From a virus, in IMG/VR virus record IMGVR_UViG_3300025276_000001, positions 50,100-114,099 of that record: 64,000 nt of DNA. One strand, written 5' to 3'. Position 1 is the stretch's first letter. Every line of letters starts with the position of its first letter. Positions 1 through 50,108 of this stretch are shown here, in pieces. The notes beneath the pieces were generated by a model. It searched no databases. It worked only from the letters and a program-made list of their open reading frames with translations, and was not told the origin of the DNA. The position numbers and the translations under genes were made by a program.

Positions 1-3000
1 TATCATTTAAAAGAAGTACAAAAGTTAAATGATTTAGCATACTTAGAACAACTTAAAGAACAAGATCCTTATTTAGATAACAATCATCTTTTAAATAATG
101 AAGCCTTTAAGCAATTATCAAATGACAATCAACAAAGAATATTAAGAATAGCGGGAACTGCAGTTGGTAAGATTAATGCTACTGAAGAAGAAATTAATGA
201 TAACATATCTGGTATATCTTCAAGATCTACATATGGTAACTTTACTCCTCAAGAGTTTGCACTTAATTTAATAAACTCTTATACCGGATTACTAAATACT
301 AAATCAGGAAAGGTAAAGTTTGTAGAATACAAAGATGGTAGAACTGGTAAAATGGTTAGGGTAGCATTAACTGCAAGCCTAATAAGAGTTTTAGAATCAT
401 CAAATACTGGAGATCTAATGTACATGCCGGTTGTTAATGCTGTAAGGTATGCAAGTGGTGACAGAGGATCAAGTGTGTTAACTGATGATGTACTTGTAGC
501 TTTTACTAATTCTATAAAGACAGAGTATACACGTATACAAAGAGAAAGGTCTGATGCTTCTAATAAAAATGATGTAGTAGGTTATAACAAAACAGAATTT
601 AATGAAGAGACTGGTGAAGAAATAATTGGTAGAGCATTTAAATTACATAACTCAGCATTATTATTAGATCCAACAGTTAAAGGTCAATTAGAAGAAATAG
701 CAAATAGATCTGAAAGTGTTTCATTTGAAGAAGCTTTAAAAGAATTAACTATAACACCTAAGCAATTTAGTAATCAACTTAATCAAATACTAGAAGCACA
801 GTTTACTGAATTTAAATCTGAACTTGATCAATTAAATATAAGCAGTGAATTAAGTTTCAATGTAAAAAATGGTTTAACTGCAGATGCTAAATTTAGTGAA
901 GCTGCTGAACTACTTAATTTAAAACAAGATAAAGATTATAACTTAAAGCAAATCTTTTTTAGTGACTGGGTAAATACAAAAGCTATTAATGAAATACTAT
1001 TAGGTGATCAAGCTGTAACATTAAAGAATGGTGTAGATGCAATTAAAAGAGCTAAAGCACAAAATGCAGCTACAGTAACTGCAGCAAGTGTTATTGCTGA
1101 TCCAACAGTAGGTGTAATGCATCCAAATCAAAACTTAAGTGCTTTTGTTTTTGAAGAACCAAGAGGTGAATCTTCACTTACAGGTAAATCAATTGATGAA
1201 GCTGATGCGCAAGCATACTACACTCTTAAAGGATTAAGGTATAGTGAGTTTGGTTTTGGTACATTAACTCCAATGCAAGCAGCATTAATTACAAGATTAG
1301 AACAAGGAGAAGACATTCCTTCTGAAGAAATATTTGGACAGGATGGTTTTGTATCTAATGGAAGCATGATCAATTCTAGAAAGCTAGTTTATGCAGATGG
1401 TAAAACATTTATTAAAATGTCTACGTTTGTGTTGATTCCTGCTTATACTTCTAATCCAGTTAGAGATGATAACGGAAACATTATTGACTGGGTGGCTAAG
1501 CCTAATAGAGTAGCTCTACACAATCTTAGAATGAAGATGGAGGCAGAAGAAGTTCTAACTGAAACAACGTCTATAGCGGCTCCCTTAAGTGCATTTAAAA
1601 TGCTTAAGCAGAACGTATCTTCTTTAGAAGAAATAGAAAATACTGATGATGTCTTTACTGAAAAACCTACTAAGTTAAAAGCTAAGTATCTTGGACTACA
1701 AGTTCCAGGTCCATCAAACAAAATGGAAATGGTTGATCCAACACAGATAAAAAACATAGTTACATCAGAACAGAAAGATGACACACCTATACCAGGAATG
1801 CAAATGAATGGTAAAACTATGACTGTTGGTGATGTAAGAAGAGAATACAATAAAGCTACTAGTCAACGTTTTGAATTGAAGTTTAAAAATAAAAGAAATT
1901 TGACTTTTAGTTTTGAATCAGCAATGAATGAATTAAGCATATCTAAAAAGGTTGGAGCAATAACTCCTAACCTAATGGCATTTTTAAAATTTGCTCAGAG
2001 TGGTTTAAAATCATCTCAATCAAGTAGTAATCAATTAGAATTCTTTAGTACAAAAGATGGAGAGCAACAATATGATTTAAATAATCCTATTACTATAAAT
2101 AACTTTGAGAGTTTATTTTTAAACTATTTAAGTAAAGGAACACTTGCTGAGAAAATACCTGGGCATAGTCTTGTATTAGTATCTGACTTTGGAAGTAATA
2201 TATACAGAAGAGTATTTAGCTTTGATGAAAATGGTATTCCTGATAGATCAGTAGTAATAAGACAAAAAGAATGGGAAAGCTCAACAGGTATAAACTCTAG
2301 TGTAAATAATACAATTCAAAATTCTACACAAATAGATGGTCAACCAACTTGGAAAGAAGTTAAAGTACCCGCAGAAGGTGTAGTAATTCTTGACCGTTTA
2401 AGATCAGCTGTAAAAGAATATGATAGTAAAGGAGTAGCAACAGGACTTAGGTATACAGAAATGATGATGCCTTCTCACTATGCTGATGTAATGGATATGA
2501 TTGAGAATGATCCAAGTGCATCTATACCAGATGTGATTGCTAAGATGTTTGCAATACGTATACCATCTCAAGATAATCATTCAACTATAAATAGTAAGTT
2601 GGTAGACTTTATGCCTGCAATCTATGGTTCAGTAGGTATGTATTCAAGAGAACTGGTAGAGATATCAGGAGCGGATTTTGATATTGATAAAGTGTTTAGT
2701 CAAATAAAAGAATGGTACATAAAGAACAATGAGTTTGTTGAGTATGGTAAGACTACTAATGAACGTGAAGCATATGAAAACTATATTGAGTATGTAAAAA
2801 TAAAAGTTAGTAGAAAAGGAACAATATACAATGAAGCATACCAACTAAAAGATTCAGACAATCAATCAATTAGAGAAGGTAACCCTTCAGCGGAAGTTGT
2901 ATCTGATGAATTAGGGCCAGTATATGATCCAGCTATTACTGCATTAGAGATGTTAGGTTTACCAATATCATTTGAACAATATAAAGAATACAAAAATAAA

Positions 3001-5841
3001 AACGGTGAACCTTATGAAGCACCACACAGTAATAAAATTTTAGATTATAAGTATGCTCTGATGGGTAATACAGCAGTAACTGAAGAAGCTTTAGTTGGAG
3101 AACTTCCAATATCATATACTCCGGCAAGTCTAGATATTCTTGAAGATATATGGAAAGAGTTTAGTGATGAGACAGAAGATAGTTCTACTAGATCTGAGTA
3201 TCTAGTTAAGCGTTCTAGAGAAGATAACATTGATATAGATAACTTATTAGGTAAGATAAAAGCTTTTGCTGCAAATAAAGGTGCGGCCATTGGTGCAGTT
3301 GTTTCTCCTAATCAAGCATTGAGTTTACTAACAGAATATAAAATTCCTTTGGGAGGTATAAATGCTCCGGTAATTGAAATAGATGGGGTTACCTTTAATA
3401 GTTTTGAATACTTAAGAGAAAGATTAGCGGATGGTAAACTAGGATTAAGAAAACAAGATATCATTTCTTCTCTGATAACAATGGCAACAGATAATGCTAA
3501 AGAAAGATTAGTTGCTAAACTAGGCCTAAACAAAGAAGCGTTAGCTTTAGTTACAAATATGGTTGCATTAGGTATGCCTATAAAGACTGCTCTACTGTTA
3601 ATCAATCAACCGTTTATTCAGGACATTTATACTGAAGCAATAAATAAAAAAGAGAAGACTGATCCGGGAGTAGATAGTTTGGTTAAGGCACTACTAAGTG
3701 ATAAGAAATATAAGGATCTTCAAATGGTAGATGTTACATCAGGTATGATGCGTGAAGGTTTGGATGTTGAATTATCTGATGCACAAACAATGTCTATCCT
3801 TCTTACTTTCCAAGAAGCATTAAAGGTCTCTAAGTTTACAAAAAACATGAGAGCTGTTTCTGATTTAACAAATGGTTTAGGAAAAGATATTGCAAGTGTA
3901 AACTACAAGAGAGAACAAATGGATTTATTGTTTGAAGAAAATGCAATAATGGATCTTTCACCTATCTATAAAAGTGATACATGGCAGTCTAAATACTTAG
4001 AGGTTTTTGATCAGATATATGATGAGTTGTTGCCTGCTACTTTCTTAAGTGCAAGTCCACAGTTTACAGATATTATGGATGAGTTATTAAAAAGTATTGA
4101 CACACAGAAAATGGAATTTAATTCTGAAGTTCAATCTAAGATTTCTAAAGATTTATTATCATATATAACAATTAAAGCATATCAAAACAATGTAGGTAAT
4201 GGAACAACAGCTTCTATTGCTAATTTAAATAATGACTTTTTATATCCATCTGGTAAAAACTCTATCAATAATATAGTAGAGAACTTAAGACTAACAGAAG
4301 CTGGAAAGAATAACTTCTTTTTAGATACGTTTGCTTTAAGTATTCCGGCAAGTGATAAAAGTAACTTTAGTGGAATGAATCTTTTAATGGCTAATACATT
4401 TAGAAGTTTAAATGCATCACAGAAAGTTGATTTACAAACGTCATTTGCTAAATTGTATGGGTCATTAGAAACTAAAGATGATGCATTATCAATCATTAAT
4501 TATATGATGGTGAAGGATGGTCTTCAGTTATCCTATGGTACATTACTAGAAGCAATATCTCCATTTACAATGAGCTCATATTTAGATCATATAGCAACTG
4601 CTAACTTAGCATTGCGTGATAGTTCTGATTCTAAAATGAATGAAGTTTTTGGAATGACACTAGAAGAAATGAAAACAGACTTTAGAGATGGTTACTTACA
4701 GTCTAATATAAATAATGCTTTGCTTAATACTTTCTCAAGCGCAAACAAAGATGTAAATGTAAAAGATGATGTTGTAAGTGTTAAACTTACAAGTCAACTA
4801 GTTACTAAGGATGTTAACTACATCAGAATAAAAACTATTTCAGGTGATACAGCTTTCTATAAGACATATAAGGTAAATGAAGATTTATCTAATAAAGATG
4901 TACGTACTTTTGAATTGGTTGATACATATGGATCCAACCAACAGAACGGAATAGGTTTTATGTTTGGGCCAAGATCAACATATGCTGAGGTAAGAAACAC
5001 AATTACTGAGCTACATAAAGATCCTATTGAAAGTAATAATCAGTATTCACAAACTGAAGATAGTGATTTATCTCAAAAAGAAAGAGATGTTGAAAAAGTA
5101 ATACAACAAGCTGATGAAGTTGAAATAGTGATTGGATCAGCTAGACAAGGTGGAACAAAAGTAGAAGTAGATGGTAAAAATGTAGCAGATGTAAAACCTG
5201 TTACTGAACAACCTTCTTTTAGAACTATTACATATACACCAACTGGAAAACCTAAACAAGAGTATACTATTGATGGTGATAGAATACTTAATAAAAAAGG
5301 TATTGAGGTTTTTAAATCAATGAGTAAAGACAGACTTAAGATATTTGCTAATCTAGCTATTAAGGAAGGTAGAGCTAAGGTTGTTACATATAGAGGTAAC
5401 AGTTATGTAGTTAATGACAAGAATCAAATAATGTCAGTGCGTACTGGTTTAGAAATGAAGTGGGAGGAAAACAATGGTAATAGAATTGCAGTGTTAAACC
5501 TAGCACAAGATCCACAGAGTATGAACAGACAAGAGTTTGAAGATGCATCTGAGGAAGTTGCAGATGAGTATACTCCTGGTGCTCTATACGGTGCTGCTCT
5601 CCTAGACAATCAAATGACATTGGAGTTTGAAGCAGAAGATAGCGTTAAGCTAACAGAGTTTTGGGATAATGAAGTTGAAAAATATCCAGAAAAAAAGGCT
5701 ATTTTTGCTAATAACAAAATGCCTACTTATAGCAGCATGGTTATGTTTTATAACACACAGAAATTAAAAGGATTCTTTCAAGGAACTGCAGAACAAAGTT
5801 CAGAAGAGGAGTTTATGGAATCATTAAAATGTTTAAGATAA
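1..5841 (+). CDS. Virion RNA polymerase, giant single chain, 5'-truncated by window edge
   Basis: The frame is open from base 1, so the first ATG at 352 is internal and the true start lies upstream. 1946 residues are visible. A DFDID motif at 2674-2688 (visible residues 892-896), preceded by SGA, matches the Mg-binding aspartates of the two-barrel RNA polymerase in crAss-like phage phi14:2 gp66, which is packaged in the virion and injected to transcribe early genes. Length and position, just before a second giant protein, fit that family (gp66 is about 2180 aa). Some crAss-like phages split this enzyme over several genes; here it is one chain. The next gene starts 7 bases downstream, so the two are probably co-transcribed and co-packaged. 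RNA polymerase identity rests on the motif, size and context; I cannot see other conserved blocks with certainty. Confidence 0.85.
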   Translation, partial: YHLKEVQKLNDLAYLEQLKEQDPYLDNNHLLNNEAFKQLSNDNQQRILRIAGTAVGKINATEEEINDNISGISSRSTYGNFTPQEFALNLINSYTGLLNTKSGKVKFVEYKDGRTGKMVRVALTASLIRVLESSNTGDLMYMPVVNAVRYASGDRGSSVLTDDVLVAFTNSIKTEYTRIQRERSDASNKNDVVGYNKTEFNEETGEEIIGRAFKLHNSALLLDPTVKGQLEEIANRSESVSFEEALKELTITPKQFSNQLNQILEAQFTEFKSELDQLNISSELSFNVKNGLTADAKFSEAAELLNLKQDKDYNLKQIFFSDWVNTKAINEILLGDQAVTLKNGVDAIKRAKAQNAATVTAASVIADPTVGVMHPNQNLSAFVFEEPRGESSLTGKSIDEADAQAYYTLKGLRYSEFGFGTLTPMQAALITRLEQGEDIPSEEIFGQDGFVSNGSMINSRKLVYADGKTFIKMSTFVLIPAYTSNPVRDDNGNIIDWVAKPNRVALHNLRMKMEAEEVLTETTSIAAPLSAFKMLKQNVSSLEEIENTDDVFTEKPTKLKAKYLGLQVPGPSNKMEMVDPTQIKNIVTSEQKDDTPIPGMQMNGKTMTVGDVRREYNKATSQRFELKFKNKRNLTFSFESAMNELSISKKVGAITPNLMAFLKFAQSGLKSSQSSSNQLEFFSTKDGEQQYDLNNPITINNFESLFLNYLSKGTLAEKIPGHSLVLVSDFGSNIYRRVFSFDENGIPDRSVVIRQKEWESSTGINSSVNNTIQNSTQIDGQPTWKEVKVPAEGVVILDRLRSAVKEYDSKGVATGLRYTEMMMPSHYADVMDMIENDPSASIPDVIAKMFAIRIPSQDNHSTINSKLVDFMPAIYGSVGMYSRELVEISGADFDIDKVFSQIKEWYIKNNEFVEYGKTTNEREAYENYIEYVKIKVSRKGTIYNEAYQLKDSDNQSIREGNPSAEVVSDELGPVYDPAITALEMLGLPISFEQYKEYKNKNGEPYEAPHSNKILDYKYALMGNTAVTEEALVGELPISYTPASLDILEDIWKEFSDETEDSSTRSEYLVKRSREDNIDIDNLLGKIKAFAANKGAAIGAVVSPNQALSLLTEYKIPLGGINAPVIEIDGVTFNSFEYLRERLADGKLGLRKQDIISSLITMATDNAKERLVAKLGLNKEALALVTNMVALGMPIKTALLLINQPFIQDIYTEAINKKEKTDPGVDSLVKALLSDKKYKDLQMVDVTSGMMREGLDVELSDAQTMSILLTFQEALKVSKFTKNMRAVSDLTNGLGKDIASVNYKREQMDLLFEENAIMDLSPIYKSDTWQSKYLEVFDQIYDELLPATFLSASPQFTDIMDELLKSIDTQKMEFNSEVQSKISKDLLSYITIKAYQNNVGNGTTASIANLNNDFLYPSGKNSINNIVENLRLTEAGKNNFFLDTFALSIPASDKSNFSGMNLLMANTFRSLNASQKVDLQTSFAKLYGSLETKDDALSIINYMMVKDGLQLSYGTLLEAISPFTMSSYLDHIATANLALRDSSDSKMNEVFGMTLEEMKTDFRDGYLQSNINNALLNTFSSANKDVNVKDDVVSVKLTSQLVTKDVNYIRIKTISGDTAFYKTYKVNEDLSNKDVRTFELVDTYGSNQQNGIGFMFGPRSTYAEVRNTITELHKDPIESNNQYSQTEDSDLSQKERDVEKVIQQADEVEIVIGSARQGGTKVEVDGKNVADVKPVTEQPSFRTITYTPTGKPKQEYTIDGDRILNKKGIEVFKSMSKDRLKIFANLAIKEGRAKVVTYRGNSYVVNDKNQIMSVRTGLEMKWEENNGNRIAVLNLAQDPQSMNRQEFEDASEEVADEYTPGALYGAALLDNQMTLEFEAEDSVKLTEFWDNEVEKYPEKKAIFANNKMPTYSSMVMFYNTQKLKGFFQGTAEQSSEEEFMESLKCLR

Positions 5842-5848
5842 AATAGAT

Positions 5849-8800
5849 ATGGCAAAATGTCCCAACGTAAATGCAGCAGAGTACAAAGCACTGCAAGCAG
5901 TTTATAAAACTGAAATTGAAACAAACAGTATTATTAATTCTTGGCAGAACGCTAATGAAAGTGATAATTTTCCAACAGCTGTTCAGGCGGCAAAGTTTGT
6001 TAAAACTACAAAGGCTGTCTATGCACTTAAACAAAAGCAGTTTGGTGAAAGTGTTATCAGTAACTTAGTTAATAAGAAACTAATCCACATGTTTAATGGA
6101 AACTATCTTGTTAATGTTGCATACCCAGGTACACAAGAATATAATGCGCAAGCTGTCAAGGATAATTTAAAAGCTATATATAAGTATTTAGATATTAATA
6201 AAATTCCTTTAGAGACTATTGACTTTGCTGCAACAGATAAAACATTTAAAGTAACAATGCTTAATAATGTTTTTACACCTAAAGATATATTAGAATCTAC
6301 ACGTGGGTGGGATACTTCTAGATCACAAAAGGTTGTAGGCCATCTTAAAAGAATGTTTCCGGGGGTTGAGGTAAGATTAGTATCAGTTAAAGAAGCTAAA
6401 AGAATACATGATGGTTTACCAGCATGGAGAAAAACATCAGGTAGCTTTGCTAATGTAAATTCATTTTACTATGATCAAGTAGCTTATTTAGTTAAAGGAA
6501 GAGTAACAAATGAAACAGCAATAGAAGAGATGCTTCATCCATTCATTGATGCTATTAAGGTAGACAATGAATCTTTATTTAATAACTTACTTGAAGAAGC
6601 TAAAGTAAACTTTCCAGAAATGGTTCAGCAGATTACTGAAGCTTATAATAATAAGAGAAACTTTAATGACTTAGATAGAAACTTAGAAATAGTAACACAA
6701 GCATTAACAAGACATTTTAATAATGAATATGAATCACAACCTACTAATTCTTTTTTAAAGTTAATTCAAGATGCATTAGAATGGTTTAAGAGTGTTATAG
6801 AAAACTTACATGAATATGTTACTGGTAATCCTTTGCCTGTTTCTGCTATAAGTAAGAATGCAACGTTTACTGATATTGCTAAATTATTAAATACAGAAGG
6901 TATTAGGTTTAAGTTAGAAAAAAGAGCAAGTGCAAAACTTAGATATTCTTTTACTCCAGAAGTACAAAGTATTTTACAAGGTGCACGTTCTGTTGCTAAC
7001 GGTATTCAGCTAGAAATACTAAATAAGATGTTTGGTATAGCTGAAAAAGATAGTAGAAATAATGATAGGTTATATGCTAATGCGGCTGAGCCAACTGATG
7101 CAGGTCCTAGAATAGTATTCAATCAAAAGGATCACACTTATATAGATGTCAATAATCCTAATGGTCAGGTGTATGCTTCTGCAACAACTGCAATAAAAGG
7201 AAAACTTAGTAATAAAGAAGGTGAAGCAATCATTAGAAGAGATGAAGCACTACAAGCTTTAAGTGATAAAGGTCAAAAGCCTAATGCTAAATTTACTGAG
7301 AAATATAAAAAAGAAATTGCTAATGGAAAAGCAGATGACATCCAAAAAGAAAAAGATGTTAAGCTTAACCTAGATCTGGGTAATGATGTTGACATGATTG
7401 TTGAGTCAATAGTTAAATTAATGAATGGCTATGAAGGAAACATTAATACTGAATTAGAAAAGGCTATGGATAGCATGGCTGTACTTAGCCGTGATCAAGC
7501 AAGAGAATTTTTTGGTGCAATGAAAGTTGCAATAAGAGACTTTATGCCTATTGATGGAATAGCTCTTTCTCAAGTAGTTGTATATGATGAAGCAACAAAA
7601 CTTGCTGGTACTGCAGATTTAGTTATAATTGATAGGAATGGTAAGATTAGAATATTTGATTTAAAGACTAGTAAGAATTCTATAGAGAAGAAAATTTCAT
7701 TATCTCAAAGTGCAGGTAGAAGAGGTTTAGGAAGTTATGAATTTAGTGAATGGACTTTACCAGCTGATAGTAGGTTAAGAAGTGAGAGTAAAGAAAAGAT
7801 AGGTAGAGAAGTAACTAAGTTGAGTACAAAGGGTCAACATAATTTACAAGTAAATCTTTACAGAAGAATGTTTGAGAACATGGGCTTCTCAGTTTATGAA
7901 GGTTCATTTGCAGCATCTACATTTCATGTTCAATTGGATATAGCTAATAAAGGTGAAAAACAAGAGTATAAAGGAACTTGGGATTATGAGGGTAAAGTAG
8001 ATCATTATGAAACTAATATATCTGAAAATAGTGTTTATGTAGACATGCTTATTCCGGCTACTGTTGATAACAGAAACAAGAAAAAACTTGATGCTAAACT
8101 TGCAGAACAACCTGAAGCTCCATATAGAGGAGATCAAGATAAAATGGCTCAAGAAGAAATTGAATCTACTGTTGAGGAAGAAGTAGCACAAGCATTATAT
8201 CCAGAAATGAATACAGTATTTGGTGCGTTAGAATCTTATAGTACTGCATTAGATCAAGCACAAAGAGGAGACCTAAATACTAAGAAAGTATATTCTAAAC
8301 GTTCTAAAGAACAAAGGTTATTGGACATTGCAAAATTACAAGCATATATTACTAGTGGTATTAGCAGAGGTCCTAAAGCACAATCAAAGATCTATACTGG
8401 ATTATTAAGTAATGCTTTAAAAGACATAAGAGAGTTTACTGATTATGTTACTGATCCTAATAATGTAACAGGTGATCCTGAATACATTGGTTTTGTATTA
8501 AACTTTAATAGATTCCTTGCAACTTATGAACCTTTATATGCAATAGAAGGGTCTAAGGAATTAAATGCAACACAACAACAGTTGGTGTTAAATTTAAAAT
8601 TAGAAGTTGATAAATTAATTGGTGGTACTAGATTAGTCTCAGAAGGTAGAGAGGGTATTATCAATGATGCAATTTTTAATTATGTAAAAGAAACAGTAAG
8701 ACTTAGATCATCTAAACAATTTGGTGTAGAAGGTAGTGGGTTTACTGAAGCTGATTTAATTAAAGAATTAACTATAGTTAATGATATCCCTGGTATTGAT

Positions 8801-11800
8801 TTACAAACCAGAGACATGGATACTTCTACAGATACTTTACTTGCTGTAGTAGCTAAGATATACAAATCACAAAAACAACTTTTACTAGACAGGATTCAGT
8901 ATAGAGAAAAAGTAATTAGAACTGCAGGTAATAAAGTATTAATGCTTAGCGGTACTAATAAAGAAAATGCATATAATTATATGCAAAACTTTAATGAGGA
9001 TGGAACACGTAATGGTACTTATGTTAAACCTATTGGTAGTAAGTTTTATGACAAACAAAAAGAACTAAGAGCTGCAACTAGAGATGCTGATAATGTACCA
9101 TATACTTATTTCAATATAAGTGATAAGAACCAAGCATCTGAAGAAGAGCTGGAATACAATATAGATTTAGCAAATAAAAAAAGAGCTGCATCTCAGTTTG
9201 GATTTGCTGAAAGAGTTAATGAAAACGGACAAAGAATTGATGGAGAATACTATTCATATAACCAAGAGTTTATTGATGCAAGAAATAAATTTGAATACTT
9301 TGTAAGTAATGATGCATATGAAGGACGTTGGTTTAAAAAACAAAGAGTTGATAGTGTAGAGTTTAATGCTTATGAAGCTAGATACTATAACATTACCAAA
9401 TATAATCAAGCACTTAGAAATCCTAATGGTGAAGCTACTGGTGTAATCATGCAAGGTGTTGATGGAAGGTTTGTTAAACCGGAGTATAAAGATAAGAATC
9501 AGTTTAGACTAGACAAAGAAGGTAATAGGATAGAAGATTTACGTAGTGATAAATACAAAGCAATATTTGATCCTGCTAAAACTGATGCATTGTCAATAGC
9601 ACAAAGAGAGTTTTATGTTTTATATGTAAAATTCTTTGAAGAAGAGTTGCTTAGAATGTTGCCTGATAACGTTAGGCAATCAATGCTAGGAAAGAACCCT
9701 GTTGTAAAAAGCAATCTTTTAGATGATCTTAAAAATAGACCAAGTATAGTTTCTAGAATGTATGCAAGTAGTGTTAGAGGAGTTAAGAATTTATTCCAAG
9801 AAACTTCTGTACAAAAAGCTGTTCTGCTTGATGAGGTGGGTGACATAACTAATAGTCTACCTATTTTTATGGTAGGAAGCCCAAGGAAAGAAGGGGATAT
9901 GGAAGCTGTAGAAGCAAAAATAATAATCCTTGAAGAGAAGTATAAAAAGAATACTGTTAATAGAGAAACTTATAAAAGTCAGTTAGCAGTATTAACTGGT
10001 GAATTAGCAAAAATAAGAAGTAGACCTTTAGCAAGTGAGCTGAGTGGAGATCTAGCAACAAGTTTAATAAAGTTTAGTGCAATGGCAGAGCACTATGAAG
10101 TTATGGGTCAAATAGAAGATACCTTAACTGCAATACAAAGAGTAGTTAATAATAGACAGTATGAACCGTCTGATGTTAATACAAAATTTGTAGGGCGTGG
10201 ACAGAACTTAATAAATAAAGCTAAGAAACAAGTTGACGCAGCTGTTAGTGGTGTTGAACAAAGTGGATCAGTTGGATTTAAAAAAGAAACAAGTGGTGAT
10301 TCTAATACTGTAAGAAGATTAAGAAAGTATATGTCAATGGTATACTATGATAATGAATTAATCACAAAAGGTGCAGTAGATAAAATAGCTGATCTTTTAA
10401 TTCAACAATCTTCTCTTGCTTATGTAGCCTTTAATCCTTTTGGTAACTTTAATAACTACCTTATGGGTAGGATTAACAACAACATTGAGATGTTGGGTGG
10501 TAGATTCTTTAGTAAGAAAAACTTTCTTAGAGCGGGTGGTGAGTGGAATAAGCAAGCTATAACCGGCCTTGTTGAAAGAACTGGTTCTGGACTTAGAGAT
10601 TTAGCTGATGTATCCACTGCAGGTCTAGCAGGTATTGGTAAGTCTAATTATGATCCTGACTTTGCAAATAATAAGTATGAAGCATTCACACAGCTTCTAA
10701 GAATGATGGATGATTCTACAGACATACGTGAATCTGGTAAAGACTCAGATGGTAAAAGCATATGGGAAAGGTTTAAAGAATGGGGTTATGTAATGCAAGA
10801 TGCTGCAGAGTACAATGTACAAAGTAGAGTAGGTATTGCTATGATCATGGATACTAATTTAATAGATGAAGCAACAGGAGAAACATTATCTATGTATGAT
10901 GCATTTAACTTTAATGCTAAAACTAAAGAGTTAGATTTAGAAAGTGGTAAATGGTCAGTATTAAACAAAGACGGATCTACTCAAGAATACAATGATGCAT
11001 TCAGATATGACTTAAGAAATAAAATTAGAGAAGTCAACAAACAAATTCATGGTAACTACGCTGCAGAAGATAGAATGGTTATTCAATCACATACGCTTGG
11101 TAATTTAGCTGCTCAGTTTCATAAGTGGGTTGCTCCGGCAATTAGAGCTAGATTCCAAACAGAATACTTTGATGAAAATCTTGGATGGATGGAAGGTAGA
11201 TATAAATCTTGGTTTAAGTTTTTGGCTTTCTATTTTAAGAATGTAGTAGAAGCTAAGGGTAACATGAAAGAACTTACTGAAACCTTCTTAAAAGAACAAG
11301 ACGGTTATGATGGTAAAGGTGGTCAAGCGGATCAAAAGGGTAAAAATAGACTTTTTGGATTCTATAGAACAATGGGTGAGATGTCTATTATAGCTGGAGT
11401 ATTTTTAACTAATCAACTTTTAGCAGGTTTATTAGAAGGAGATGATGATGATAGTGATACTGAAAAAAGAATTAAAAACTTAACTAAGTATCAAGGAGAT
11501 AGACTGTATAAGGAATTAGTATTATTTGCTGTTGTTTTACCAGCATCAATGGAACAGATATTTCAAATGGCTAAGTCACCAATTGCTACTACAAGAACAA
11601 TGGGTGAATTAGGTCAAGCTTTAAGTATGACAATATGGACACCATATGAATTAATTACAAAAGGTAAAGAAGGTTATGAGGCAAACTCAGAATACGTATA
11701 TCAAAACAATCCTAATAAAGGACAGTGGAAACTAGGGAAAGAATGGAAAGATGTTATTCCAATTCTATATACTATACAGAAATGGAAGAATGCTCTTAAA

Positions 11801-11824
11801 CTAGATAAGTTCTGGATTAAATAA
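5849..11824 (+). CDS. Giant virion/ejection protein with embedded PD-(D/E)XK nuclease domain
   Basis: This 1991-residue protein follows the virion RNA polymerase with a 7-base gap. In crAss-like phages such giant proteins are virion cargo that leaves with the DNA. Around residues 420-720 there is a PD-(D/E)XK nuclease-like domain: it opens with an F-x4-H-x-Y segment, then GTAD (D590) and IFDLKT (D604, K606), then a Q-rich helix region. The rest is long helical, polar sequence of unknown role. Near residues 1850-1870 a hydrophobic stretch precedes an acidic GDDDDSD run, and another hydrophobic stretch follows, which could serve membrane passage. The nuclease domain resembles the free-standing nuclease at 54526-55338. 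Possible roles are host DNA degradation on entry or processing of phage DNA; neither is shown by sequence. Structural role is inferred from family context. Confidence 0.7.
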   Translation: MAKCPNVNAAEYKALQAVYKTEIETNSIINSWQNANESDNFPTAVQAAKFVKTTKAVYALKQKQFGESVISNLVNKKLIHMFNGNYLVNVAYPGTQEYNAQAVKDNLKAIYKYLDINKIPLETIDFAATDKTFKVTMLNNVFTPKDILESTRGWDTSRSQKVVGHLKRMFPGVEVRLVSVKEAKRIHDGLPAWRKTSGSFANVNSFYYDQVAYLVKGRVTNETAIEEMLHPFIDAIKVDNESLFNNLLEEAKVNFPEMVQQITEAYNNKRNFNDLDRNLEIVTQALTRHFNNEYESQPTNSFLKLIQDALEWFKSVIENLHEYVTGNPLPVSAISKNATFTDIAKLLNTEGIRFKLEKRASAKLRYSFTPEVQSILQGARSVANGIQLEILNKMFGIAEKDSRNNDRLYANAAEPTDAGPRIVFNQKDHTYIDVNNPNGQVYASATTAIKGKLSNKEGEAIIRRDEALQALSDKGQKPNAKFTEKYKKEIANGKADDIQKEKDVKLNLDLGNDVDMIVESIVKLMNGYEGNINTELEKAMDSMAVLSRDQAREFFGAMKVAIRDFMPIDGIALSQVVVYDEATKLAGTADLVIIDRNGKIRIFDLKTSKNSIEKKISLSQSAGRRGLGSYEFSEWTLPADSRLRSESKEKIGREVTKLSTKGQHNLQVNLYRRMFENMGFSVYEGSFAASTFHVQLDIANKGEKQEYKGTWDYEGKVDHYETNISENSVYVDMLIPATVDNRNKKKLDAKLAEQPEAPYRGDQDKMAQEEIESTVEEEVAQALYPEMNTVFGALESYSTALDQAQRGDLNTKKVYSKRSKEQRLLDIAKLQAYITSGISRGPKAQSKIYTGLLSNALKDIREFTDYVTDPNNVTGDPEYIGFVLNFNRFLATYEPLYAIEGSKELNATQQQLVLNLKLEVDKLIGGTRLVSEGREGIINDAIFNYVKETVRLRSSKQFGVEGSGFTEADLIKELTIVNDIPGIDLQTRDMDTSTDTLLAVVAKIYKSQKQLLLDRIQYREKVIRTAGNKVLMLSGTNKENAYNYMQNFNEDGTRNGTYVKPIGSKFYDKQKELRAATRDADNVPYTYFNISDKNQASEEELEYNIDLANKKRAASQFGFAERVNENGQRIDGEYYSYNQEFIDARNKFEYFVSNDAYEGRWFKKQRVDSVEFNAYEARYYNITKYNQALRNPNGEATGVIMQGVDGRFVKPEYKDKNQFRLDKEGNRIEDLRSDKYKAIFDPAKTDALSIAQREFYVLYVKFFEEELLRMLPDNVRQSMLGKNPVVKSNLLDDLKNRPSIVSRMYASSVRGVKNLFQETSVQKAVLLDEVGDITNSLPIFMVGSPRKEGDMEAVEAKIIILEEKYKKNTVNRETYKSQLAVLTGELAKIRSRPLASELSGDLATSLIKFSAMAEHYEVMGQIEDTLTAIQRVVNNRQYEPSDVNTKFVGRGQNLINKAKKQVDAAVSGVEQSGSVGFKKETSGDSNTVRRLRKYMSMVYYDNELITKGAVDKIADLLIQQSSLAYVAFNPFGNFNNYLMGRINNNIEMLGGRFFSKKNFLRAGGEWNKQAITGLVERTGSGLRDLADVSTAGLAGIGKSNYDPDFANNKYEAFTQLLRMMDDSTDIRESGKDSDGKSIWERFKEWGYVMQDAAEYNVQSRVGIAMIMDTNLIDEATGETLSMYDAFNFNAKTKELDLESGKWSVLNKDGSTQEYNDAFRYDLRNKIREVNKQIHGNYAAEDRMVIQSHTLGNLAAQFHKWVAPAIRARFQTEYFDENLGWMEGRYKSWFKFLAFYFKNVVEAKGNMKELTETFLKEQDGYDGKGGQADQKGKNRLFGFYRTMGEMSIIAGVFLTNQLLAGLLEGDDDDSDTEKRIKNLTKYQGDRLYKELVLFAVVLPASMEQIFQMAKSPIATTRTMGELGQALSMTIWTPYELITKGKEGYEANSEYVYQNNPNKGQWKLGKEWKDVIPILYTIQKWKNALKLDKFWIK

Positions 11825-24316: not shown

Positions 24317-26076
<1,760 letters not shown>

Positions 26077-30514: not shown

Positions 30515-31501
30515 TTATAATTTAATGTTTCCTACTAGAAAATCATAAGGTAGCTGATAGTTTCTTTCTTTATAATGATAGCTTGCAACTTTTATAACTC
30601 CCTCAAGACCATCAGCCCAACCAGCTAAAGTCTCATCAGTAACATCAAATACATAAACTTGTTTGTATGTATCTATTACTACAAACTTAAATTTAATACT
30701 GTACTCTTCTGCTTTATCACCTAACGTATCATAAACTAATTTACAATATATAGCCGCTTGCAGCCAGTAATTATAAAAGTCTATAGTCTCCCGGAAATCA
30801 GAAATAGTTTTACCTGTAGTCTTAAGGTCACAGATAACAACTTCTTTCTTATCATGGTTTACTTTATAGAAATCTATATAACCATGTAATCCAAAATCAT
30901 TGCCTGCTAGTTCAGACTTTAGATAATCTTCTGCATGAGTCTCTATTGGATCTAATTCAAAGTCTGTTTTCTGTTCAGTAAATAAAGACATTACATCTTT
31001 GTTTTCTTTTATAGTCTCAACCATTTCTGTACACTTAGCAACAGTATCTTGATCTACAACATCAACGTTTGTATTAGATAAGAACTTCCAATAAGGTGCA
31101 TTATCCTCAGTAATAACTTTCTTTAGTCTTTGTTCATCTGTTTTAAGAGACTGGAAAAGATTTAAAGTTTTTAATGATTCTAAGGCCTGTATCTCACATA
31201 GATCTAATGTTTCTGCATTAGTATGAATAGACATGTCTTTCATTACTTTTCTAATATTATCACTTGGTGCTTTACCAGGTATAATATTAAACTTTTCAGC
31301 TACTTTCTCTGGTTCAAACAATAAGCAATGTACAAGCTTTCCTTCTACAAGGTGTTTGTCTGTTCTGACTTCACGGTCAAACAGTATATATTCTTTATAA
31401 AATAAAGATGGTGAAAACAATAATTTATTCAAAGAAGAGTAACTAAAACAAAAGTCTTTTTTTGCATAGAATACTTCTTCTTTACTCTGGTTTTTTTTCA
31501 T
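30515..31501 (-). CDS. PD-(D/E)XK exonuclease (RecE/exonuclease VIII-like)
   Basis: 328 residues. The N-terminal YSSLNKLLFSPSLFY and GKLVHCLLFEPE segments are typical of the exonuclease VIII-like PDDEXK family. Catalytic residues can be placed as D210 (GYIDF), D225 and K227 (ICDLKT), with a later Q-x3-Y (LQAAIY). Such enzymes resect double-stranded ends to feed single-strand annealing, and a Sak4-like ATPase and an SSB-like protein are encoded in the same block. A nuclease for host DNA breakdown is the alternative. Confidence 0.8.
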   Translation of the reverse strand: MKKNQSKEEVFYAKKDFCFSYSSLNKLLFSPSLFYKEYILFDREVRTDKHLVEGKLVHCLLFEPEKVAEKFNIIPGKAPSDNIRKVMKDMSIHTNAETLDLCEIQALESLKTLNLFQSLKTDEQRLKKVITEDNAPYWKFLSNTNVDVVDQDTVAKCTEMVETIKENKDVMSLFTEQKTDFELDPIETHAEDYLKSELAGNDFGLHGYIDFYKVNHDKKEVVICDLKTTGKTISDFRETIDFYNYWLQAAIYCKLVYDTLGDKAEEYSIKFKFVVIDTYKQVYVFDVTDETLAGWADGLEGVIKVASYHYKERNYQLPYDFLVGNIKL

Positions 31502-31643
31502 TAGATTTAATTAAGTTATCAATTATGTCTAGCTGCTGCTGAAGTTTTTGGATTTGTAATTTAACTTCATTTGACGGAGCTTTCTGTTTATATAGTAAAA
31601 TTGTCTCTGATATCACTTTCTTCATGTCTGATTTCTTGCTCAT
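31482..31643 (-). CDS. Small coiled-coil protein overlapping both neighbours
   Basis: 53 residues if started at 31643 (a second ATG at 31625 would give 47). The C-terminal half is a heptad-like helix (VKLQIQKLQQQLDIIDNL). It overlaps the end of the 401-aa gene by 56 bases (38 with the later start) and the start of the exonuclease by 20, all on one strand. This bridges the only gap in that operon stretch. Coding is plausible but not certain. Confidence 0.45.
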   Translation of the reverse strand: MSKKSDMKKVISETILLYKQKAPSNEVKLQIQKLQQQLDIIDNLIKSNEKKPE

Positions 31644-32793
31644 CTGTTTCTTTTTTAATTATGTTATCTGTTAATGTATCTTTTAATTTTACACTATCCA
31701 AGCTAATAGAGAAAACATTAGCATTATTACCACCTATATCACGTAAAACTTCATGGTATAACTTTTCTCTAGTGTTGTCTAATGCAAACTTAGTTAATTT
31801 TTTATCTTCAATTAGACATTCTATGTAGTTATTATAAGCATATATCATTGTAGCATTACATCCGCCTTGATACTTCTTAAGCCTTTTTCTTAAAGCTTTA
31901 ACATTAACCGTATTCCAATTACTGGTGTCTTTTAACCAATCAAAATACCAGTAAAACACATGAGATACAATATCAAAAGACTTATCAATATTACAGTTAG
32001 CAAGCATTTCTAATGCTAGGGTCCTGTTCTCTTTACCATCATTTTTTACCATTTTAACTATGGTGTCAAGTTCAGTATTTTCTAGCACTGCTAATTGTTC
32101 ATCTATTATATTAATAATATCTGTATCATAAACAATTATTGCTTTAGAATTTACAATATTATTGTAATTTACTACATTAACTTGATGAAGTATAATATCT
32201 CTACTATTAGTATCATCACTTACAAAGAGTTTTTCCTTTAACACTTGAAAAACATTTCTAAGATTATCTTCTGCAGTACTATTACGACTGTAATTATAAG
32301 GAAAATCAAGTTTAATCATAGCATCTGGCCCCATATCATGAAGCATTTCTCTACACTTTGATAATCCACTTTCTGATATAAAATCTTTTTCTTTGGCCTC
32401 TTGTAAGAGTTTTATCAAAAGACTTACTTTAACAGAAGTATTCCATTCATAATCAAATAAGTTATCAAATAGTTGATCTGATACTACATTTATATCTGCT
32501 TTATTAATATCTCTTATGACTTTACAATTATACTTTTCCTTTAGTAAATCCACCTTTTGTCTAGGTAGATCTAATTTAGGAAACCTATACAAAGTTTTGT
32601 CTTGTACAGTGAAAGCTTTAGCAGGTGTAAAAGATATACCTAACTTTGCTTTATCTTTATCATCTAAGTTATAATTATCACTACTACCCATCCAATAGCC
32701 TTTAGATTCATGATTAAAAGCATTATCATTTAACTTACCATTTATGAATGTCTCAGTATTAATACTTATGGATACGTTATATTTTTTCTTCAT
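31588..32793 (-). CDS. MoxR/VWA-operon protein, paralogue B
   Basis: 401 residues, related to the gene before it (32777-33838). Both share a block around LYRFPKLDLPRQKVDLLKEKY...NKADI followed by a helix with LLIKLL, and a later block GKENRTLALEMLANCNI...W...LRKRLKK that aligns with GDENKAMAAKIIPCIDY...W...WLKES in the paralogue. No known domain identified. The gene overlaps its paralogue by 17 bases. As part of an ATPase-metallopeptidase operon it may be a substrate-recognition or adaptor subunit. Confidence 0.65.
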   Translation of the reverse strand: MKKKYNVSISINTETFINGKLNDNAFNHESKGYWMGSSDNYNLDDKDKAKLGISFTPAKAFTVQDKTLYRFPKLDLPRQKVDLLKEKYNCKVIRDINKADINVVSDQLFDNLFDYEWNTSVKVSLLIKLLQEAKEKDFISESGLSKCREMLHDMGPDAMIKLDFPYNYSRNSTAEDNLRNVFQVLKEKLFVSDDTNSRDIILHQVNVVNYNNIVNSKAIIVYDTDIINIIDEQLAVLENTELDTIVKMVKNDGKENRTLALEMLANCNIDKSFDIVSHVFYWYFDWLKDTSNWNTVNVKALRKRLKKYQGGCNATMIYAYNNYIECLIEDKKLTKFALDNTREKLYHEVLRDIGGNNANVFSISLDSVKLKDTLTDNIIKKETDEQEIRHEESDIRDNFTI

Positions 32794-33838
32794 TAGTTTT
32801 TGTTTTATTAGTTAAATACTGTAAGTATTCTTTTTTTACAGATACTTTAAATGTATAAAGATCTCTATTTTGTATCCTTATCTCTTGTCTTACTATAGGT
32901 TCTAAGTATTTAAAAGTTGTTTGACACAATTCTTTTTTCTTTTCTAACCATAGTATCATGCCTTGTGCAGACAATCTAGTGAACTGATCAAAGTTTGATT
33001 CTTTTAACCAAAACTGGATATCTTTGTCTCTATTATAATTCCACATGTTATTCTCACAATCCTGAGCAAATTGCCACAGTAAATGATAGTTCTTTGTATA
33101 ATCTATACAAGGAATAATCTTAGCAGCCATAGCTTTATTCTCATCACCATAAGCATTTAACTGTTTCTTTAAATCAACCAGCAACTCTTCATCCATAATC
33201 ATCTTTGTAGATGAACTATGTAATACAGTTTCTGGATCTATAACACTTACTTCAGTAGTATCAATTATATGCGCTAGATTAAGAGCCATACCTGTAATCA
33301 TCCACTCATCATAAAGACTGGTAATTATATTAAAATCATAATATCTGATATTCTCAGTTATCTTAGATGTTAATATTACATTACCGTGCTTCTTAATAAG
33401 TTGATTAATAGGACTAGTAGAGCTTGTTGCTCCATCAGTAGTTTCATAGTTCCATAACTTTGCTAACATTATAGAAGTCATTATTGGATCAGCATTTTCA
33501 AACCTTCTTTCAATACCCTCATGACCTACTATAAGATCTGCTTTAGTGTAATCATTTGTAACGGTAATACCATGCTCTTTTAAAGCAGCTTTTAATCTAT
33601 CTTGTGATACTTCACATCTAGGTAAAATGAATGCTTTCTTTTTTGTTATAAACGTACTCCCTGATTCAGTTGGTACTGATAAAGACCTTGTTATTTTTTC
33701 ATATGTTGTTTGGTCTTGAGTACACAATACATCTTCTACTACAGAACCAACAAGAACTCCCATTAAAGGAGCTCCTGCTAGATCATAATAGTTTAATGCA
33801 GTAGTATCAAAACTTTGATAAACTGATTTATTTGCCAT
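32777..33838 (-). CDS. MoxR/VWA-operon protein, paralogue A
   Basis: 353 residues; see shared blocks with 31588-32793. The N-terminal part differs from its paralogue; the middle contains AFILPRCEVSQDRLKAALKEH and KADLIVG, a Rossmann-like beta-alpha-beta pattern. It starts 1 base after the stop of the ATPase gene, so tight coupling is likely. Function unknown. Confidence 0.65.
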   Translation of the reverse strand: MANKSVYQSFDTTALNYYDLAGAPLMGVLVGSVVEDVLCTQDQTTYEKITRSLSVPTESGSTFITKKKAFILPRCEVSQDRLKAALKEHGITVTNDYTKADLIVGHEGIERRFENADPIMTSIMLAKLWNYETTDGATSSTSPINQLIKKHGNVILTSKITENIRYYDFNIITSLYDEWMITGMALNLAHIIDTTEVSVIDPETVLHSSSTKMIMDEELLVDLKKQLNAYGDENKAMAAKIIPCIDYTKNYHLLWQFAQDCENNMWNYNRDKDIQFWLKESNFDQFTRLSAQGMILWLEKKKELCQTTFKYLEPIVRQEIRIQNRDLYTFKVSVKKEYLQYLTNKTKTNEEKI

Positions 33839-33839
33839 T

Positions 33840-35117
33840 CTATTTCATTGTCATTTTGATGATATCTGGATTCATCATCAATTTATTAAACTTAGATTTA
33901 TTACCATTAAAGATGGTTCTTATAACTAGATACTTAAGATCATTTGTAAAGTAATCTTTGGTAGCTAATGATTGTAACCTGTCTGTAATTTTAGCTGATA
34001 TAGTATTTTCTTTAGAATACACTACAGCAAAATTGGCCAAACGTGTTGCTAAAGTAGCAGCAATATCTGCCCGGTACGTGTCATCTTTACCAATACAACT
34101 ACGTAATTCACCTAGGATGTATGATTCACTTTCATGAGTTAATAGATCTTTTGGTGAAACTAACTTATCAAGTTTGTTATTAATAAATGTAGTAAACATA
34201 GAAGCAAATGCATCTCCAACTGAACCTTCACCAATCATTTGTATTAATGATAAGTTATCTTCAAACTTCTCAAAACTTGATATTGAATTAAAGAATGTTG
34301 TAATTGATCTTGCATTAGTTTCTTGTGTTACTAATTCCGGGTGTAGCAACAAGAAGTTAATACATCTTGAATCTATGCCAGCACCTTCCGCCCACTCAGC
34401 CCATACATTAACATCAAACTTAAGATTAGCAGTTACATATCTAGTTTTCTGTGCACTATCTACACTGTTAACCATATAGTCTCCGTTGTCTGGATTTGCT
34501 GTTAGCATAATATGCCAGTCTTTTGGTAATTTCCATGAGATGTAAGTCTGACGGTCTATTAATTCCATAACTGCCTGTATAAAACGTGTATCAGCTCTAT
34601 TCCAGTCATCTAGTAATAATATACCACCCTCTTTAGCATCCGCAATCCATTCCGGTGCACAATAAGACATTCTGTTCTTACCTGTCATTTTGTATCCATT
34701 CTTTAGATACTCTTGTACAGCAAGTTCATCTACCCACATACCAACTTTCTTAGTAATAGTAGCAGGCATTTTAGCTAGATCAGCTGATGCTGATGCTCTT
34801 TGTGCTGCAGTATAGTTAAGATCATCAATCTTTTTCTTAGGGTTAGCAATTGTTTTTTCCTTGAACATTTGAAATTGTCTTACAGGAAACCCTACTAGGT
34901 CACCTAACTCTTCTATCTGTGCAAGATTTAGTTTAACAAATTTTAGTTTGTTTTCTTCAGCTAATTCAACAATAGTAGAAGTTTTACCAATCCCTGATTC
35001 ACCCACTACCTCTATAGAGACAGGAGCTTTATTATTCTCTTGTAAATACCTATTATTTCTTATAATATGATTTACAAATCCTTTTAATTCTGTTACATTT
35101 AAATTTACTTGAGCCAT
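33840..35117 (-). CDS. MoxR-like AAA+ ATPase
   Basis: 425 residues. Walker A is GESGIGKT (39-46), Walker B is ILLLDDWNRA with the MoxR-type pattern followed by Q..MELIDRQ, and sensor 1 is MLTANPDNGDY. MoxR-type ATPases usually act with VWA-domain partners to remodel or mature protein complexes; such a partner is the next gene upstream (35123). The C-terminal part is helical. It starts just after the metallopeptidase gene with a 5-base gap. Confidence 0.85.
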   Translation of the reverse strand: MAQVNLNVTELKGFVNHIIRNNRYLQENNKAPVSIEVVGESGIGKTSTIVELAEENKLKFVKLNLAQIEELGDLVGFPVRQFQMFKEKTIANPKKKIDDLNYTAAQRASASADLAKMPATITKKVGMWVDELAVQEYLKNGYKMTGKNRMSYCAPEWIADAKEGGILLLDDWNRADTRFIQAVMELIDRQTYISWKLPKDWHIMLTANPDNGDYMVNSVDSAQKTRYVTANLKFDVNVWAEWAEGAGIDSRCINFLLLHPELVTQETNARSITTFFNSISSFEKFEDNLSLIQMIGEGSVGDAFASMFTTFINNKLDKLVSPKDLLTHESESYILGELRSCIGKDDTYRADIAATLATRLANFAVVYSKENTISAKITDRLQSLATKDYFTNDLKYLVIRTIFNGNKSKFNKLMMNPDIIKMTMK

Positions 35118-35122
35118 TTTTC

Positions 35123-36286
35123 TTAATTTAATTTGATTACTTGTCCTGGTAATTCATCATTCACTTCTGATATACTGCTTAAACACCATAAGGTATTATT
35201 TGGGCAGTTCTCAGGTGGATATGCTTCACCATCTGTTAGATATATAAGGGCAGTATATTTCCCTTTGTGTTCATTAAAATAGTCTATAACTGGTTGGAAG
35301 CTAGTCCCACCTCTACCGTGTATTTCCCAATCTTTTTTAGGATTGAATTCTTCCACAGTTCTTAATTGAGTATCACATTGTGCAACTGATATCTTATGAC
35401 CTGTTTTAGTCATGTGAGATAATTCACTAAAGAATTCTTGCAACTCATCATTGTTTACAGATCCTGAAGTATCTACACCTACTAATATGTGATTTTTAAA
35501 CTTAATCTTTAAGCCTGGGCTAGCGGAGTAACGTTTGTTATACTTACGTCTTAGTTTCTTTGTATAAACTACACTTGAGTTACCTACAAATCTTCTTAGA
35601 TATTGTTTCCAATCAAACTTAGCAGGTTCTATATGAAAGAGTCTTTCTATTAACTCTTTAAATTCACCCGGTATGTTACCTTGTTTTTTAACTGTTTGTT
35701 CTGCAGCCTCCTTAAGTTGATGTTCTACTTGTTTTTCTAATAATTTCTTATCAGGTTCTGACATGCCGTCAAATTCATCCCAAGTAGTATGATCATACTC
35801 AGTTTCTCCATTCATCTTATCCATTAGGTTATCTAATGAAGGACATGTTCCATCTTTCTGTCCTTGTTCCAAAAGATTGTAATATACTTTTGTACCTGCC
35901 TTACTAGGAAGATTTAGTTCTGGAAAACTTGACAATAATAAACCACCTTCTGGTAATCTATCACTGGATATATATTGATTAATCTCTAAATCAGCAGCTA
36001 TATTAAATAACTTATGATCTGAATAAAGATCTCTCATGATTAAATGTCCAAATGCTATGTGCAACAGTTCATGTTTGATTAACCCTACTCTGTGGAGTAA
36101 TGGTAATCCTTCATAAAACTCTGGATTTATAGTTAACTGCATACCAATACCTTGCTTGCTTACACCTGCTGTAGGTATTTGTAAACTAAACTTCTTATTG
36201 ATACCAATCAAAAAGAGCCCGTAAAAGGGCTCATCTAAAATTAGGTCTTTAGTTGTCTTAGCAACTAAGTCTTGTATGTTCTTCAT
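35123..36286 (-). CDS. VWA-like metallopeptidase-domain protein (DUF2201-type)
   Basis: 387 residues with two parts. The first has a zincin motif, HELLHIAFGH (H72, E73, H76; H81 may be the third ligand). The second is VWA-like with a metal-ion site VDTSGS (271-276). This pairing fits the DUF2201 putative metallopeptidase/VWA family, commonly encoded next to MoxR ATPases. It may bind or cleave a target after ATPase action. Both active sites look intact. Confidence 0.82.
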   Translation of the reverse strand: MKNIQDLVAKTTKDLILDEPFYGLFLIGINKKFSLQIPTAGVSKQGIGMQLTINPEFYEGLPLLHRVGLIKHELLHIAFGHLIMRDLYSDHKLFNIAADLEINQYISSDRLPEGGLLLSSFPELNLPSKAGTKVYYNLLEQGQKDGTCPSLDNLMDKMNGETEYDHTTWDEFDGMSEPDKKLLEKQVEHQLKEAAEQTVKKQGNIPGEFKELIERLFHIEPAKFDWKQYLRRFVGNSSVVYTKKLRRKYNKRYSASPGLKIKFKNHILVGVDTSGSVNNDELQEFFSELSHMTKTGHKISVAQCDTQLRTVEEFNPKKDWEIHGRGGTSFQPVIDYFNEHKGKYTALIYLTDGEAYPPENCPNNTLWCLSSISEVNDELPGQVIKLN

Positions 36287-36291
36287 ATTTT

Positions 36292-36609
36292 CTAAGTCCT
36301 CATGATTAGTATAAGTATTTGTTTATAGATATGTTTGTTTCCGTTTCTTTTGATTTCACTGTAGATGTTCCTACTAAGCAATTTTTGATAAGTATAAACA
36401 AGACCAGGATCTCCCGGCCAGTAGTTAGTCCACTTAATAAACCTTTTCCTGTTAATACCTTGTAATGATTTAACAAGCAATAGATCTAATAGAGCTTTGT
36501 CATTATACATTAAGTTATCTAAATTGTTAATAGCAATATAATAATCTTCATCTACACCATTCAATAATTTCCTTAATGATAGGAACTCATCAATTGTGAT
36601 GTTACTCAT
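36292..36609 (-). CDS. Hypothetical protein
   Basis: 105 residues. Basic, helical, with a central IKWTNYWPGDPGLVYTYQKLL segment and a hydrophobic C-terminal end. It overlaps the resolvase gene by 8 bases and lies 5 bases before the VWA gene. No family recognised. Confidence 0.55.
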   Translation of the reverse strand: MSNITIDEFLSLRKLLNGVDEDYYIAINNLDNLMYNDKALLDLLLVKSLQGINRKRFIKWTNYWPGDPGLVYTYQKLLSRNIYSEIKRNGNKHIYKQILILIMRT

Positions 36610-49662: not shown

Positions 49663-50108
49663 GGTTATTTAATTTAAGTGGTGATTTGCAATATTGCGGG
49701 TAATGTTATACTATTCCTATAGAGAGAGAGACAACAAGCTATTATGTTATTGTCATGAGTATATCTATTGTATTGTTGCTAGCGTTAGCTATGTTTAACT
49801 ATTATGAGCACAATAATAACTAGAGTGGTAATAAGTGGGTATATGTGGTGTATGAGACCACCTATTCACATTGTTACACACACTTGAATATAAATTGTTT
49901 TTATTGTGCTTTAATTACTATTTTACTAGTAACACGTGTAATATATAGCTGGGGAGCAGAGAAAGAGAACGACCGCAGGGAGAGAAGCTGACAGAGCAGA
50001 CCAATAGACTAAGTTAGTGCTGTCTTACTTAAATTAAGCATGACAACGAGTAACAATGCTAGCTGATGTTATAATAAGAGGAGAGTTGTTACACCCTCCT
50101 CATTATAG
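49663..50108. other. 446-base mostly non-coding region, candidate origin or control region
   Basis: Contents: a purine-rich, GC-richer stretch at about 49948-50010; a 13-bp repeat TAGCTGGGGAGCA (49946-49958) seen again at 50502-50514; a hairpin GTGGT...ACCAC (49845-49861); CTATTCACA (49862-49870), one base from the DnaA-box form TTATTCACA; and the stem GACAG...CTGTC around 50000-50030. One 22-residue reading frame (49755-49823, plus strand, MSISIVLLLALAMFNYYEHNNN without support) also occurs. No tRNA signature is visible. Confidence 0.4.

Follow-up and report, generated by a model that had tools for sequence, protein, structure and literature searches.

Motors of the MoxR class work with vWA partners to remodel target complexes (PMC7159879, PMC9976466). 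In the cellular pairs RavA-ViaA, NorQ-NorD and CbbQ-CbbO, a MoxR-class ATPase and its vWA co-factor act on a dedicated target (PMC9976466, PMC3893208, PMC4660213). Bacterial MoxR-vWA ternary conflict systems (VMAP, iSTAND, FtsH and beta-propeller types) add a characteristic third component whose helical part diverges, and their effector domains are fused C-terminally to the vWA (PMC7159879). In phages, N4 gp24 and gp25 are listed as Schitoviridae core proteins without an assigned function (PMC4193335, PMC7650795). Iyer et al. 2021 named the jumbo-phage pair and proposed that it acts in virion assembly; in group 2.2 jumbo phages it is viewed as a chaperone-cochaperone pair with an N-terminal metallopeptidase on the vWA protein, and only the pair is described (PMC7824862). 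No paper in the literature searched contains both 'crAss-like' and 'MoxR'. The MoxR/metallopeptidase-vWA pair, which is present in hundreds of sequenced phages with its job listed as unknown, is thus already known; new here is a third family, A/B/C, that accompanies it as a constant, multi-copy component at a replication-block site.

The window analysed is a 64,000-nt stretch, positions 50,100–114,099 of virus record IMGVR_UViG_3300025276_000001 (114,099 bases). The genes of the operon and their main features are:

30515..31501, minus strand: PD-(D/E)XK exonuclease (RecE-like), final gene of the conserved unit (phrog_412 exonuclease VIII, 3.9e-20)
31482..31643, minus strand: small coiled-coil-like protein of 53 aa between B and the exonuclease (9 distinct homologues)
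31588..32793, minus strand: paralogue B, 401 aa, with the same architecture as A
31759..32100, minus strand: helical domain of B common to C and A, about residues 232-345; in many B proteins, this is where the profile of C matches
32777..33838, minus strand: paralogue A, 353 aa, a BRCT-like segment plus an alpha-helical C-terminal half
33497..33646, minus strand: tentative BRCT-like beta-alpha-beta-beta segment of A, about residues 65-114
33840..35117, minus strand: MoxR-clade AAA+ ATPase, MoxR (N4 gp24 family; phrog_1297, 1.9e-34)
34980..35003, minus strand: Walker A motif GESGIGKT, MoxR residues 39-46 (98-100% conserved, 46 rows)
35123..36286, minus strand: metallopeptidase-vWA protein, VWA (N4 gp25 family; Pfam, PHROGs)
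35459..35473, minus strand: MIDAS DxSxS motif (DTSGS), VWA residues 272-276
36059..36073, minus strand: HELLH zinc-binding motif, VWA residues 72-76
36292..36609, minus strand: C, 105 aa, a free-standing copy of the A/B C-terminal helical domain

Transcription runs from C through VWA, MoxR, A, B and the 53-aa frame to the exonuclease, and neighbouring genes overlap or lie no more than 5 nt apart throughout. VWA and MoxR are separated by 5 nt and MoxR and A by 1 nt; A and B overlap by 17 nt, B and the small frame by 56 nt. The initial annotation had described VWA, MoxR, two paralogues and a small frame as tightly packed at 31482-36286; all these ORFs are intact and lie on the minus strand, but C, upstream of VWA, and the exonuclease had been overlooked. 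The small coiled-coil frame is a genuine gene, with its homologues in the same slot, but it is restricted to some relatives. Promoter-like sites occur no more often than in shuffled sequence, so the operon boundaries rest on spacing and conservation. The operon lies within a replication/recombination block, with primase, RusA, Sak4 and DnaB on one flank and the exonuclease and PolB on the other; terminase and portal are on the opposite strand.

VWA contains DUF2201_N (4.8e-17) and DUF2201 (6.9e-17), both above the Pfam cutoffs, and matches phrog_1314 at 2.1e-65 and 421 cultured phage records by tblastn, several of them Schitoviridae. Across 63 VWA rows, conservation is 100% for H72, E73 and H76 of the HELLH motif and for D, S and S of the DTSGS motif, in agreement with the intact motifs reported initially. 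In MoxR, for which profile searches place the AAA+ rings of midasin nearest among solved structures (1.6e-12), nearly all Walker A and Walker B (ILLLDD) residues are 98-100% conserved in 46 rows. HExxH also occurs in six other phage lineages, which keep the MIDAS and Walker motifs too. PHROG 1314 and many phage records label the VWA family 'HNH endonuclease', which disagrees with its DUF2201 domains.

With DUF2201_N and DUF2201 in one protein, an adjacent MoxR whose profile recovers phage MoxR proteins, and intact motifs, the pair is of the N4 gp24/gp25 type. Thus, a pair that had been presented as one that could not be named belongs to a family that is core in Schitoviridae (PMC4193335, PMC7650795). 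Like the pair described here, N4 gp24/gp25 (PHROGs 1297 and 1314) combine MoxR with a zincin-vWA protein (DUF2201), adjacent or nearly so, and conserve HExxH, MIDAS and Walker A. In contrast, the Schitoviridae VWA is only about 25-29% identical, MoxR comes first there, and the phages tested have no A-like or B-like partner by profile. Neither A nor B matched cultured phages by tblastn, and the B profile matched nothing in nine whole phage genomes. Neighbours of the pair in Alteromonas AD45 (gp53), Moorella MTATph1 and Salmonella SP-076, and likewise in LIT1, S-TIM66, phage G, Thermus phiFa and Vibrio Va1, were considered as distant A/B proteins and rejected. RavA-ViaA, NorQ-NorD and CbbQ-CbbO differ from the present system in being cellular rather than phage-borne; to our knowledge they have neither a metallopeptidase domain nor an A/B/C family. 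The bacterial ternary systems resemble this locus in their third component, but here a zincin is N-terminal on the vWA, and no VMAP-C, iSTAND, FtsH or beta-propeller component was among the Pfam matches listed for 57 A and 57 B proteins (25 of 38 families for B).

A and B were initially called paralogues. Their relationship is barely visible pairwise (BLASTP 0.004) but clear between profiles (hhalign 96%, E 4.7e-9, 278 columns). The C profile matches those of B (E 2e-6, 89%) and A (3.4e-4, 38%), but not MoxR or VWA. Judged by these profile comparisons, A, B and C are homologous through the helical domain. In a FastTree phylogeny of 96 proteins, for which the alignment is weak at such divergence, all 30 A split from all 35 B with support 0.999, and 27 of 31 single-copy A/B proteins fall outside the A clade. 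The A/B/C family has nothing above cutoff in Pfam, PHROGs, NCBIfam or PADLOC; for A in particular, no Pfam family reached the cutoff and no PHROG was informative.

AlphaFold2 models A and B with confidence (pLDDT 88.6 and 86.5, respectively), yet neither model has a whole-fold PDB match at E 0.001 and neither full-length profile has a credible match in the PDB. The best PDB match of the A model in Foldseek is the PARP-1 BRCT (prob 0.96, E 0.17), and BRCT domains recur in the structure match lists of both A and B over the same stretch (about residues 65-105); of the complete beta-alpha-beta-beta-alpha-beta-alpha fold, the structural match covers a 41-47 residue core only. In a sub-profile of this stretch built from A and B, PARP-1 BRCT accounts for the best two of three PDB matches with E <=10 (0.019 and 0.031). 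A matches Pfam BRCT at 0.024, under the cutoff, and 12 of 57 A proteins match it weakly, at best at 0.0083. All these matches are below conventional significance, and we tentatively suggest that A and B may carry a BRCT-like segment. Residues 242-297 of B weakly match the HEAT-type DNA_alkylation family (E 0.11). By fold, A also matches four phage proteins at E 8e-8 to 8e-7 and 8-12% identity (A0A8S5QMV2, A0A8S5TL70, A0A8S5TKB2 and A0A6J5LXR8); one of these belongs to a crAss-like virus, and two come from the same phage, ctz6O13.

Linkage was assessed in 122 distinct operons with full flanks, located via operon genes. VWA, MoxR and the exonuclease are kept in all 122, a linkage that exceeds chance, and C is present in 118. 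Two A/B genes are found in 101 operons and one in the other 21. The exonuclease is always downstream, with a median overlap of 8 nt with B, which overlaps its start in most relatives. VWA and MoxR stand further apart in roughly one operon in seven, where the gap mostly holds a conserved ~128-aa protein (MGRYYxGDIEGKF...), as in L054:6874-7260 and L154:9607-9975.

The operon genes themselves had served to locate the 122 loci, and relatives were therefore sampled via their terminase as well. MoxR is present in 7 of 16 such contigs; the nine MoxR-less contigs stop short of its expected site, ~21 kb upstream of the terminase, and thus all contigs that are long enough (7/7) carry it. A was found in five of these seven, and the other two end at MoxR. 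Occurrence of the paralogues outside any MoxR context had been named at the outset as evidence against a joint system; in the terminase sample, A is absent from the MoxR-less contigs. The operon therefore appears to be core rather than patchy in this clade.

A search with MoxR of 84,980 bacterial and archaeal species genomes returned six loci. Three of these are phage contigs that were binned with bacteria, as shown by the phage gene block they carry, including DnaB, primase or PolB wherever the contig extends that far; at the remaining three, MoxR+VWA pairs of 32-34% identity lack A, B and C. This bears out the proposal of a phage-specific version.

On the combined matches of TerL, PolB and the neighbouring exonuclease, the phage is a relative of Crassvirales. 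Its large terminase is of the crass type, with crAss-like genomes as the top listed matches (25% identity). PolB matches include Cellulophaga phage phi14:2, a Crassvirales member, and the exonuclease beside the operon matches PD-(D/E)XK exonucleases of gut crAss-like phages. The portal, which matches Pfam P22_portal at 8.9e-5, under the family cutoff, was counted as P22-like. We infer a marine or aquatic origin and a Bacteroidota host for this phage; the A/B/C operon would then be an added core module for the aquatic branch of Crassvirales.

Divergence differs sharply across the block. Mean pairwise identity among 73 representatives is 0.80 for DnaB, 0.79 for MoxR and Sak4, 0.70 for VWA, 0.68 for PolB and 0.56 for the exonuclease, but only 0.42 for A, 0.28 for B and 0.26 for C, the lowest values in the replication block. 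MoxR is among its best-conserved genes, on a par with the replication core. Target-specifying adaptors would be expected to diverge, as A, B and C do, beside a constant motor; weak constraint could instead explain the fast divergence.

We give roughly even chances to a model in which the operon encodes an ATP-driven, proteolysis-capable remodelling machine with A, B and C as dedicated adaptors. MoxR would form an AAA+ ring. A client peptide would be held at the MIDAS site of the vWA domain of VWA, whose N-terminal zincin domain would be able to cut the client. A, B and C would bind the client and dock it on the motor, with A and B making additional contacts to it via the BRCT-like segment, and the A/B duplication would let one motor serve two clients or a two-sided complex. 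The operon is probably expressed early. The pair of paralogues is not a requirement, as certain lineages carry only one A/B gene; C, too, is missing from a few. The proposed MoxR/vWA-type remodelling system holds, and the duplicated partner is a plausible specificity factor. A bolder version, in which A, B and C form an undescribed adaptor family of a multi-client system acting through the BRCT-like segment on phage or host replication or repair complexes, is possible but less likely than not. If true, A/B/C with MoxR/vWA would be a phage counterpart of the bacterial ternary systems. Diverging partners that constantly accompany a motor offer a handle on its target.

The most likely target is a protein complex at the phage replication/recombination centre, as suggested by the location of the operon among primase, Sak4, DnaB, the exonuclease and PolB; because gut crAss-like exonucleases occur without the operon, only its position ties it to recombination. 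A host complex comes close behind, given the divergence of A, B and C and the cassette replacement in gut relatives. The same observations, that no genes of the block diverge more than A, B and C beside a constant motor and that gut Crassvirales hold different cassettes between primase and exonuclease, would suit host takeover, in which the motor would take apart or cleave a host complex whose variable protein is recognised by the quickly evolving A, B and C. However, A/B/C resemble no known host-takeover or defence proteins and the operon appears core rather than patchy, and we consider host takeover rather unlikely.

Location also bears on virion assembly or maturation, in which structural proteins would be chaperoned and cut, as proposed for the jumbo-phage and Acidianus two-tailed virus pairs. 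This role has been published for the identical domain pair (PMC7824862), the pair lies near virion genes and Hsp20 in cyanophage S-TIM66, and an N4-like roseophage encodes some of its virion proteins close to the gp24/25 homologues (PMC4193335). In the present phage, however, the operon is embedded among replication/recombination genes on the strand opposite terminase and portal, which disfavours the virion maturation raised initially and makes such a role improbable. In another reading, A and B would be DNA-binding recombination scaffolds (BRCT-like plus HEAT-like) that work with the exonuclease and Sak4 and are merely co-transcribed with MoxR and VWA. The BRCT-like segment, the weak DNA_alkylation-type match and the overlap of B with the exonuclease start are consistent with scaffolds; yet both domain matches are sub-threshold, and C, beside VWA on the far side, means that the A/B/C family brackets the motor, not the exonuclease. 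We accord this reading a similarly low probability. An ordinary accessory gene cluster with no joint function is very improbable, as order and spacing are kept across the 122 distinct operons despite identities below 30% for B and C.

Several other features of these genomes were noted alongside the operon. In gut crAss-like phages (L234 and L235; cr111_1 and cr108_1), the primase-exonuclease stretch holds a metalloprotease and ThiF in one and an ATP-grasp/amidotransferase in the other, which suggests that it is a variable slot; the cassette proteins of cr111_1 and cr108_1 were rejected as A/B, MoxR or VWA. Two giant ORFs lie adjacent on the plus strand of the window, 352-5841 (1829 aa), without a PHROG or Pfam match, and 5849-11824 (1991 aa), whose sole match is a weak Pfam PD-(D/E)XK; the DxDGD motif is absent, so no RNA polymerase identity was assigned to them. 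Near the replication block, the phage also encodes a GroEL-type chaperonin (24317-25951, minus strand; phrog_5725, 8.9e-171).
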